Below, one piece after another: positions 48,721-62,867 of a stretch of 64,000 bases of DNA; the stretch's first letter is position 1, and every line of letters starts with the position of its first letter. The notes beneath the pieces were generated by a model, which was not told the DNA's origin, did not search any database, and saw only the letters and a list, made by a program, of their open reading frames with translations. The stretch is from contig JAJYYE010000001.1 in NCBI GenBank assembly GCA_021801265.1, forward strand, positions 248,001-312,000, in the 5' to 3' direction. This stretch comes from Pseudomonadota bacterium. Its GTDB lineage: Bacteria; Pseudomonadota; Gammaproteobacteria; Halothiobacillales; Halothiobacillaceae. Made by a program: the position numbers and the translations under genes.

Positions 48721-50799
48721 TTATCCGGTTAAATCATCCAGCAGCGATTGCTGCGCGGAGCGTGGCTTGGCATTGTGATGTCGTTTGACCCGATGATACA
48801 ACCCATCCGCCTCAAGCGCCCATGCGCCGGTGTTATCGCTAAGATAACGCTCAAACGCCTCATTAATTACCCGCACCTTCAACTCGGGCGAATCGATGGG
48901 GAAGCAGGTTTCCAGGCGCACGAAGAAGTTGCGTGGCATCCAGTCGGCGCTGGATAAGAACAGTTCATCATCGCCATCATTCAAGAAGTAAAACACCCGG
49001 GGGTGCTCTAAAAACCGCCCCATCACCGAGCGCACATGGATATTTTCGGATAACCCGGGAATACCAGGCTGCAAGCAGCAGACACCGCGCACAATCAGTT
49101 CAATCACCACACCCGCTTGAGAGGCCTGATATAAGGCCTCGATAATCTGGCGGTCGATTAGTGCATTCATTTTGGCGCGGATCAGCGCCTTGCGCCCTGC
49201 CCTTGCGTGCTCCATCTCTCGCCCAATCCGCTCCAACATACCGCTATGCAAGGTGAAGGGCGATTGCAGCAAACGCTTGAGCCGCATGCCCCGCCCCAGC
49301 CCGGTGAGCTGCATAAACAGTTTATTGACATCGTCACCGAAAAACCGGTCATCAGTCAGCAAACCGAAATCCGTATAAATTCGAGCAGTACCGGGGTGAT
49401 AGTTGCCTGTACCCAGATGCACAAAGCGCTTTAAGCGCGAGCCATCGCGACGCAAAACCAGGGTCATTTTACCGTGGGTTTTGTAGCCTACGATGCCATA
49501 CGCCACATAGGCACCCGCTTTTTGCAGTCGCGTGGTGATGTCGATATTTGCCTCTTCATCGAAGCGGGCACGCAACTCAACAACCGCCGTCACTTCCTTG
49601 CCCGCCCGGGCCGCCGCCTCCAATGCATCGACAATCGCCGAGTCACGCCCGGTGCGGTAGAGCGTCATTTTAATGGCCACGACCTTCGGATCGCTGGCCG
49701 CTTGGCGTACAAATTCGACCACGGGCAAAAATGATTCATAGGGGTGATGCAACAAGATTGAACCGCGTTGTTCGATGGTTTCAAAGATATTCGCATCGCC
49801 GCTTAACTCATTTTTAAGCTTTGGCGTAAAAGGGACATCCTTCAGATCCGCGCGATTAACCAAGCCGTACAATGCCATCAAGCGATTCAGATTCACCGGG
49901 CCGTGTACCTGGAATACCGCATGGTTTTCCAATTTGAAGCGGTCGCACAAAAAATCGATCATTTCCTGCGGGCAGTTATCGGCAACTTCAAGCCGCACGG
50001 CATCACCGTAATTACGTTCAAACAATCCGCCCTGCAAGGTTTTGAGCAAATCCTCATCATCATCCAGATCAACGGCCAGATCACTGTTGCGGGTAACCCG
50101 GAACTGGTAGCAGCCCGTCACCGTCATCCCCGGAAACAACTCATGCACATGGGCGTGAATGATTGAGCTCAGAAACACAAAACTCGAAGTGCTACCGGAA
50201 GCCTCTTCATCCATCCGGATAATCCGAGGAAGCGCGCGCGGCGCCTGAACAATCGCCATCCATGCTTCGCGGCCATAATCATCCGTCCCTTCCAGCGAGA
50301 CGACAAAATTGAGCGATTTATTCAAAATGCGCGGGAAAGGATGCGAGGGGTCGAGTCCCAAGGGGGTCAGCAAGGGGAGTAGTTCGCGCCGAAAAAACTG
50401 CTTCACCCATAACGCTTGCGCTTCACTCCAATGGGTACGGCGGAGAAAATCGATCCCTTGTTCGGCCAGTGCGGGAATAATCTCATCGTTGAGCGTGTGA
50501 TATTGGTCGTAAACCAACTCATGTGCTTTCGTGTACACCTGGGTGAGCTGCTCCTCAGGTGTTAAACCGGAATCATCCGGACGGCTCAAACCCACCCGCA
50601 ATTGCTGGGTGAGTGAGCCGATTCGAACCTCAAACAACTCATCCAGATTCGACGACGAAATACATAAAAACTTCAACCGCTCCAGCAGGGGCACACTGAC
50701 ATCCTGCGCCAACTCAAGCACGCGGCGATTGAAGGCAATCAGGCTCAATTCACGATTGATGAATACAGGAGAAATAGATTGTTCTGGGTTTTCAGTCAT
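48721..50799 (-). CDS. ppk1: Polyphosphate kinase 1
   Basis: Makes inorganic polyphosphate from ATP at the inner membrane. 692 residues with N domain (ISPVFINRELSLIAFNRRVLEL), head domain and the two phospholipase-D-like catalytic halves; the phosphorylated histidine is the one in GYKTHGKMTLV, and HHPYESF is conserved. ATG at 50799. Divergent from phoU, with Pho-type heptads in between, suggesting phosphate-starvation control. Confidence 0.96.
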   Translation of the reverse strand: MTENPEQSISPVFINRELSLIAFNRRVLELAQDVSVPLLERLKFLCISSSNLDELFEVRIGSLTQQLRVGLSRPDDSGLTPEEQLTQVYTKAHELVYDQYHTLNDEIIPALAEQGIDFLRRTHWSEAQALWVKQFFRRELLPLLTPLGLDPSHPFPRILNKSLNFVVSLEGTDDYGREAWMAIVQAPRALPRIIRMDEEASGSTSSFVFLSSIIHAHVHELFPGMTVTGCYQFRVTRNSDLAVDLDDDEDLLKTLQGGLFERNYGDAVRLEVADNCPQEMIDFLCDRFKLENHAVFQVHGPVNLNRLMALYGLVNRADLKDVPFTPKLKNELSGDANIFETIEQRGSILLHHPYESFLPVVEFVRQAASDPKVVAIKMTLYRTGRDSAIVDALEAAARAGKEVTAVVELRARFDEEANIDITTRLQKAGAYVAYGIVGYKTHGKMTLVLRRDGSRLKRFVHLGTGNYHPGTARIYTDFGLLTDDRFFGDDVNKLFMQLTGLGRGMRLKRLLQSPFTLHSGMLERIGREMEHARAGRKALIRAKMNALIDRQIIEALYQASQAGVVIELIVRGVCCLQPGIPGLSENIHVRSVMGRFLEHPRVFYFLNDGDDELFLSSADWMPRNFFVRLETCFPIDSPELKVRVINEAFERYLSDNTGAWALEADGLYHRVKRHHNAKPRSAQQSLLDDLTG

Positions 50800-50901
50800 A
50801 AAATCGCAACTTGGTTGAACTAGAATGAGTATAAGGAATTACTGGCGTGCTTATAGTCACACAGAAGGATGCAAATTTCTTCTTTAAGCGCCCATCTCAC
50901 T

Positions 50902-50941
50902 CGTGTCATTATGAAACAGGTCGGTGACAACTCGGTGACGC
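50902..50941 (-). promoter_or_regulatory. Candidate Pho box array between ppk1 and phoU
   Basis: Read on the minus strand, heptads recur every 11 bases: GCGTCAC, TTGTCAC, CTGTTTC, TGACACG, with 4-base spacers CGAG, CGAC, ATAA. The PhoB consensus heptad is CTGTCAT/C with a 4-base spacer; the second unit matches 6/7, the first 5/7, the others less. On the plus strand GTGTCAT (50903-50909) is also 6/7. Confidence 0.45.
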
Positions 50942-50987
50942 GCCCACCCCGCTCGCTTCAACAAACTTTTTGGAGAAAATCGATTTC

Positions 50988-51701
50988 ATGGAATCTTATA
51001 ACGGTACTCCGCACACGCTCACGCGCTTCGACGATGATTTAAACAGCCTACGCACACTCATGATGAATATGGGCGGCATGGCGGAGCAGCATTTTGCCGA
51101 TGCCTTGGCGTATCTACTGGATGCCGATGCCATTCGCGGCGCGCGTGCGATCAGCCAAGATTATGAAATCAATCGCCTAGAGTCCTCTATTGATGAACTG
51201 GCCATTCAGATCATCGCGCGCTACTCGCCCACAGCCAATGATTTACGCACCATCATGTCTGTGGTCAAAACCATCACTGATCTCGAGCGCATCGGCGATA
51301 AATCAGAAAAGCTTGCCCGCATTGCAGAAGAAATCGGCCCGACTCTGCGCACAACGGATTTTGTGAGCCATTTTCGTGTCATGGGGCGCATTGTGAGCGG
51401 CATGCTCCACGATGCGCTGGATGCCTTCGTGCGCTTGGACGCGATTGCTGCCGAGGAGATCATTCGCCGTGATACCCATGTCAACCAGGAATACAACGCA
51501 GTACACGGCATATTGCTGAAATTCATGACAGAAAACCCCAACTCGGCCGAAGTGAGTTTGCGGATGTTAAGTTGCATGCGTGCCATTGAGCGGATTGGTG
51601 ATCACTGCACCAATATCGCCGAATACGTCATATTCCAACAAAAGGGCCATGATGTTCGGCACGGCGAATTGTCGCGCGACAAACAACGCACACAAATTTA
51701 A
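50988..51701 (+). CDS. phoU: Phosphate signalling protein PhoU
   Basis: 237 residues in two homologous three-helix bundles; the metal-binding helix motifs appear as ITDLERIGDKSEKLARIAEE and MRAIERIGDHCTNIAEYVIF. PhoU links the Pst transporter to PhoR and restrains the Pho regulon. ATG 50988; TGGAGA lies 11 bases upstream, and an in-frame TTG at 50970 is less likely. No pst or phoBR genes are in the window. Confidence 0.95.
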   Translation: MESYNGTPHTLTRFDDDLNSLRTLMMNMGGMAEQHFADALAYLLDADAIRGARAISQDYEINRLESSIDELAIQIIARYSPTANDLRTIMSVVKTITDLERIGDKSEKLARIAEEIGPTLRTTDFVSHFRVMGRIVSGMLHDALDAFVRLDAIAAEEIIRRDTHVNQEYNAVHGILLKFMTENPNSAEVSLRMLSCMRAIERIGDHCTNIAEYVIFQQKGHDVRHGELSRDKQRTQI

Positions 51702-62756: not shown

Positions 62757-62812
62757 ATGACAGCAAACTGACAGCCGTTTGAAGGCTCGCTGTCATATAA
62801 ATCACATACAAT
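62757..62812. promoter_or_regulatory. Candidate Pho box array and -10 upstream of the mgtA-type gene
   Basis: On the minus strand CTGTCAG-TTTG-CTGTCAT (62774-62757) matches the Pho box half-sites 13/14 with the correct 4-base spacer. On the plus strand CTGTCAT-ATAA-ATCACAT (62790-62807) has one perfect and one poor half, and overlaps a good -10 (TACAAT, 62807-62812) that has no -35. The rest of 62684-62867 shows no riboswitch I recognise. Confidence 0.5.
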
Positions 62813-62867
62813 AATTCGCCAGTCTAATAAACTGACCCAGCGTGATTTTTGTTTTATGGAGGGAGTC

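Follow-up and report, generated by a model that had tools for sequence, protein, structure and literature searches.

A predicted PhoB-dependent promoter of ppk1, divergent from phoU, in Halothiobacillus-type sulfur oxidisers

In the phoA promoter of Escherichia coli, a gap of 10 bp separates the Pho box from the -10 element. The box, as defined from phoA and pstS, has the consensus CTGTCAT-A(AT)A(TA)-CTGT(CA)A(CT) (PMC3465305). PhoB is described as binding direct repeats head-to-tail (PMC4415409), and its sites have been modelled as covering the -35 region (PMC3348028). Many PhoB sites in E. coli are reported to be transcriptionally inert (PMC10294691).

Phosphate control of ppk is already known from several bacteria and is not universal. 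A review that cites work on Streptomyces states that PpK is induced in most bacteria to store phosphate (PMC4415409), PPK transcripts of Acinetobacter rise on phosphate deprivation (PMC8576328), and ppk is listed among the induced Pho regulon genes of Sinorhizobium (PMC3596328). On the other side, the polyphosphate kinase PA0141, which is of the PPK2 type, falls in abundance when Pseudomonas aeruginosa is limited for phosphate (PMC9769906), and the main text of two papers on the PhoB regulon of E. coli mentions neither ppk nor polyphosphate. The locus considered here would resemble those of Streptomyces, Acinetobacter and Sinorhizobium in bringing ppk into the response to phosphate starvation, but those bacteria belong to other lineages, and the cited parts of the three accounts do not mention a divergent phoU partner.

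The locus lies in a stretch of 64,000 nucleotides, referred to below as the window, that was analysed as a whole. The host genome comprises 2.66 Mb in 12 contigs. Among named organisms, Halothiobacillus MAGs have the PhoU most like its own (95, 93 and 92% identity), which is why it is called Halothiobacillus-type here. Within the window, ppk1 and phoU are divergent and lie 188 bp apart. The features of the region are as follows, ordered by position.

48721-50799, minus strand: ppk1, encoding polyphosphate kinase 1 (692 aa), with all four PP-kinase domains present.
50800-50813, minus strand: conserved ppk1 leader AAGTTGCGATTTT, directly ahead of the ATG, from the alignment of the genus.
50899-50902, minus strand: predicted transcription start of ppk1, about 100 nt ahead of the ATG, placed from the position of the -10 hexamer.
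50908-50913, minus strand: CATAAT, the -10-like hexamer of a predicted promoter from which PhoB would drive ppk1; all 10 genomes of the genus have it unchanged.
50914-50923, minus strand: spacer of 10 bp, fixed in length and unconserved in sequence, from comparisons within the genus and with a second genus (g4).
50924-50941, minus strand: predicted Pho box, direct repeats GCGTCAC-cgag-TTGTCAC with an 11-base period, directed toward ppk1, from matrices and conservation.
50988-51701, plus strand: phoU (237 aa, two PhoU domains), starting at the ATG that follows GGAGA; the open reading frame as listed starts further out, at TTG 50970.

A genome-wide profile search found a single phoU (two domain hits in one frame), and pstS-C-A-B lies on a different contig, without phoU. 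The genome encodes both PhoB and PhoR: only one response regulator exceeds the PhoB cut-off (351.3 bits, as against 296.2), and the histidine kinase that follows its gene is called PhoR here on the basis of position and histidine-kinase domains. Clusters of pstB, phoU and phoB likewise place phoU beside other Pho genes. Among 80 loci from named genomes, these three genes stand in line in 70, all among phoU relatives of about 40% identity. Six have ppk1 divergent from phoU, all of them Halothiobacillus; one has pstB-phoU and three have phoU only.

The initial annotation described four heptads with an 11-base period between the two genes, at 50902-50941, and read them as tandem PhoB sites oriented toward ppk1. 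The coordinates and the sequence are correct: on the minus strand the units are GCGTCAC (50941-50935), TTGTCAC (50930-50924), CTGTTTC (50919-50913) and TGACACG (50908-50902). At most three of them resemble a PhoB heptad, and two are conserved. Compared with CTGTCAT, units one to four match at 4, 5, 4 and 0 of 7 bases, and the scores of 6/7 and 5/7 originally given for the best units are recovered if C or T is permitted at the last base (5, 6, 5 and 0). Four tandem sites are ruled out, with units three and four unconserved and unit four matching the consensus nowhere. What stands of the earlier reading is a PhoB-type box of two heptads facing ppk1, conserved in two genera. Most of the third heptad falls within the spacer, and the hexamer CATAAT, read from 50913 to 50908, opens at the edge of unit three and closes on the first base of unit four. 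On the plus strand there is a lone GTGTCAT at 50903 (6/7).

The two repeats share with the E. coli Pho boxes of phoA and pstS the form of two 7-base direct repeats with an 11-base period. They differ in their target, ppk1, in the weaker heptads GCGTCAC/TTGTCAC, and in the linker CGAG, which is not A+T-rich. By eye, the site has a 15-mer, GTCACCGAGTTGTCA, in common with a PhoB site found by ChIP-seq within eptB of E. coli (PMC10294691, Table 1). The likeness lends weak support, since the eptB site is intragenic and has a ChIP score of 1, the lowest in that table. No Rfam match was found in 50500-51300, and neither a sigma-70 consensus promoter nor a terminator in 50700-51050; the former is expected to be missing if the box replaces a -35 element.

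The box was scored with two matrices, both built without it. One was drawn from 59 ChIP-seq PhoB sites of E. coli (PMC10294691, Table 1). The other, a genus matrix, comprises 58 heptads from seven pstS and ten phoB promoters of the same genus, excluding ppk1 and including the phoB promoter of the window's own genome; the pstS promoters of L051, L053 and L058 are missing from it, the heptad expression having been too strict for three of the ten. The box, read from 50941 to 50924, scores 13.9 bits with the genus matrix and 13.2 with the E. coli matrix, a moderate fit, the latter value being close to the lower quartile (13.3) of the scores of the E. coli sites themselves. Of the 127,966 positions that a pair could take in the window, it ranks fourth with either matrix. 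A PhoB matrix had been suggested as a check on the site, and the scores do rise above background, but a rank of fourth in 64 kb is by itself near chance level. Ranks 3 and 1 with the E. coli matrix belong to PhoB-like pairs set back to back at 62773 (minus strand) and 62790 (plus strand). These precede an open reading frame at 62856, whose product resembles an MgtA-type magnesium P-type ATPase.

Two further scans took in more than the heptads. A pair score of at least 8 with a -10-like hexamer (at least 4/6) 10-11 bp downstream occurs at just two places in the window, and the ppk1 box is the better of them (13.9 with 5/6, as against 11.2 with 4/6). The pattern GTCAYNNNNNTGTCAY matches the 2.66-Mb genome nine times, compared with four times for the backward control. 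Three of the nine matches are upstream of genes (ppk1, phoB and a glycosyltransferase gene), five are inside open reading frames of at least 100 aa (L088, L089, L093, L095 and L096), and one (L094) lies across the start, itself uncertain, of a frame that resembles a permease gene. The pattern overlooks the pstS promoter of the same genome (CTGTCAC/AATTCAT).

To me it is conservation, not score, that convincingly makes the case for the predicted site. The search covered 57 genomes including the window's own; 46 gave a PhoU match, and the 30 best were fetched. In all 26 fetched loci of the family, again counting the window's genome, ppk1 is divergent from phoU, while the fetched flanks of the four loci outside the family gave no ppk1 match. 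Throughout the genus of the window (g1), two heptads, a gap of 10 bp and CATAAT face ppk1 (10/10), which puts the box where a -35 element would be. The alignment of the genus shows no variation in TGTCACC or CATAAT, and among its intergenic stretches only one, across the ppk1 leader and start, is better conserved than the box. L029 has a weak first heptad (GGTTAAT), and in several relatives a ppk1 heptad reads ACTTCAC, which resembles the second heptad of pstS promoters. The box is also present at all six named Halothiobacillus loci, which may overlap with the genomes of the genus already counted.

Outside the genus, the picture varies. In g4, nine of 11 genomes have a ppk1-facing pair with the 10-bp gap, these nine being the ones with a PhoU of 70% identity or more; of the two exceptions, G025 gave no match in the PhoU search, and G026 has a PhoU of 50% identity and lacks the pair. 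The g4 heptads are mostly GCTTAAC or GCTTCAC with CTGTCAT (GCTTAAT, CCGTAAC and one CTGTCAC also occur), and the hexamers CAGACT, CAAACT and CAGGCT match TATAAT at just two or three of six positions. The one genome of g2 (G010) has a weak pair, TGGAAAT-TTGTCAC (6.8, p=0.11), and none of the five genomes of g3, of the same family, has a box facing ppk1.

Taken singly, the genomes give shuffle p values of 0.003-0.14 in g1 (above 0.075 in four of ten) and 0.007-0.05 in g4. The mean best score with the E. coli matrix is 13.1 in g1 and 11.3 in g4, as against 5.7 and 1.6 with the matrix reversed. Of 1000 column-permuted E. coli matrices, none came up to the real mean for g1, one did so for g4, and none did so for both together. 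The genome counts are not independent, since the genomes share ancestry. The heptads of g1 and g4 differ in their letters, yet a PhoB matrix fits both.

The conserved leader of ppk1, AAGTTGCGA..TT (50800-50813, minus strand), lies inside the most conserved 24-column stretch of the alignment of the genus, which includes the first codons. It is traceable in g4, and a classical ribosome-binding sequence is absent. A TATTCTA-like stretch upstream of the leader may be a second promoter.

Other candidate Pho promoters in the same genomes show what such sites look like in this lineage. The pstS promoters have four heptads, typically CTGTCAT, ACTTCAT, TTGTCAT and GTGTCAT, at spacings of 11, 11 and 10 and with a gap of 11 bp after the heptads; the pattern was caught in seven of ten genomes of the genus, and the other three are alike by eye. 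The phoB promoters (10/10) read TTGTCAY-N4-GTGTCAY (ATGTCAC in one), followed after 10 bp by TTAAAT, TTCAAT or TCAAAT. The same 10-bp layout, TCGTCAY-N4-YTGTCAY-N10-TAAGGT (TATGGT in one), precedes an operon of a GT4 glycosyltransferase and then a PAP2 phosphatase (L097:2203-3976; G000:C8, ~558.7-560.5 kb) in all nine genomes of the genus with a match; G008 gave no match to the operon. The corresponding g4 loci have a pair such as GCGACAC or CCGACAC with CTGTCAT, 10 bp and a TAGCGT-like hexamer in eight of ten; the exceptions are L109 and L116, of which L116 is a fragment that lacks the gene start. Remodelling of membrane lipids under phosphate shortage is known from other bacteria, and the GT4-PAP2 operon may serve such remodelling here.

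Two observations concern PstS. A second PstS-like protein (32-36% identical) is encoded at L062-L067, in six of ten genomes of the genus including the window's, with TGTCAT/TTCAT-like repeats upstream of its gene. The nine g4 genomes that were searched with the window's PstS yielded no pstS, and a loss of Pst in that genus was considered and dropped because PstB was found above the cut-off in all nine.

The initial annotation would also have placed phoU in the Pho regulon. This half of the claim is unsupported, because no independent, conserved Pho box faces phoU in the ten genomes of the genus. With the genus matrix, the best phoU-facing pair scores -0.8 to 7.5, as against 8.1-13.9 for pairs facing ppk1, and with the E. 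coli matrix 1.2-7.3, as against 11.9-13.5. In five of the ten, what scores best toward phoU is the ppk1 box itself on the opposite strand (2.8 or 2.9 bits), and in the other five the position of the best pair differs. Higher scores were obtained in g3, where phoU-facing pairs in L041, L042 and L045 reach 13.4-14.4 (p 0.010-0.017; 13.1-14.1 with the E. coli matrix). These were set aside: in the first heptad, GTCAT is the in-frame ppk1 start ATGAC read on the other strand, and the match is partly trivial for that reason, although a genuine site may be present. One genome, G026 (L044), has the phoU-facing pair TTGTCAC/TTGCCAT (15.6, p=0.010). Ahead of phoU in g4 (L031-L039) lies a strongly conserved stretch of the type CACGAGTAAACCCTAGCA..GGGTCGAGACAAGCCG, which does not appear in g1; it is perhaps the phoU promoter of g4.

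I consider it very probable that 50924-50941 together with CATAAT makes up a PhoB-activated promoter of ppk1; from the sequence I infer the binding, the activation, the start and the response to phosphate. By analogy with the known family, PhoR would phosphorylate PhoB upon phosphate shortage. Two PhoB molecules would then sit head-to-tail on the direct repeats from 50941 to 50924, which would stand in for a -35 element, and bring RNA polymerase to CATAAT, 10 bp downstream. Transcription of ppk1 would proceed leftward and give a leader some 100 nt long, equipping the cell for polyphosphate synthesis, and phoU would be transcribed in the opposite direction.

A compatible elaboration, which I regard as possible but improbable, is that the same box serves both genes, PhoB activating ppk1 and also activating or blocking phoU. 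In the window, 46 bp separate the box from the ATG of phoU, so that the phoU transcript may cross the box, and the missing sigma-70 consensus promoter would also be in keeping with a shared element. Moreover, the region of the hexamer is nearly palindromic (TCATAATGA), so a plus-strand CATTAT could serve phoU. That hexamer, however, is CATTAT in eight of ten genomes and AATTAT or GATTAT otherwise, never beginning with the consensus T; the g4 hexamers are not palindromic, and the genus lacks an independent conserved heptad pair directed at phoU. The narrower proposal of a reciprocal switch seems to me unlikely: from its site at 50941-50924, PhoB would activate ppk1 while blocking a phoU transcript that, in this genus, would begin at or to the left of the box, for instance from CATTAT. 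If it were true, less PhoU would prolong the starvation response as polyphosphate synthesis rises.

The repeats might instead be bound by a different regulator of the OmpR/PhoB family, members of which bind similar tandem repeats. The genome encodes four further proteins with nearly full-length matches to the PhoB profile (162-201 bits, below the cut-off), but the heptads match those at the pstS and phoB promoters of the same genomes, and also the E. coli PhoB matrix, and I judge another regulator to be quite unlikely. Slimmer still is the chance that the resemblance is accidental and the conserved element upstream of ppk1 is something other than a PhoB site. Conservation ahead of genes often has other causes, and the score in the window alone is near chance; against this, the differing heptads of g1 and g4 both fit the PhoB matrix at the same 10-bp gap, and permuted matrices do not.

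A search of the open-licence literature found no paper on divergent phoU and ppk in connection with polyphosphate, and none on a Halothiobacillus Pho regulon by title among the matches listed. What is new here is the lineage, the precise position of the predicted site and its setting between divergent ppk1 and phoU. The case may also serve as a worked example of a site prediction in which the score alone is near chance level and the conservation is not. Recovery of Caulobacter from phosphate starvation needs ppk1 (PMC13250506), and for that reason it would make sense for the enzyme to be made during starvation. With the GT4-PAP2 operon sharing the layout, the predicted regulon would be wider than ppk1. 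For Halothiobacillus-type sulfur oxidisers, in which phoU stands outside the pst operon and back to back with ppk1, the site offers a conserved prediction that would tie the synthesis of polyphosphate to the supply of phosphate.
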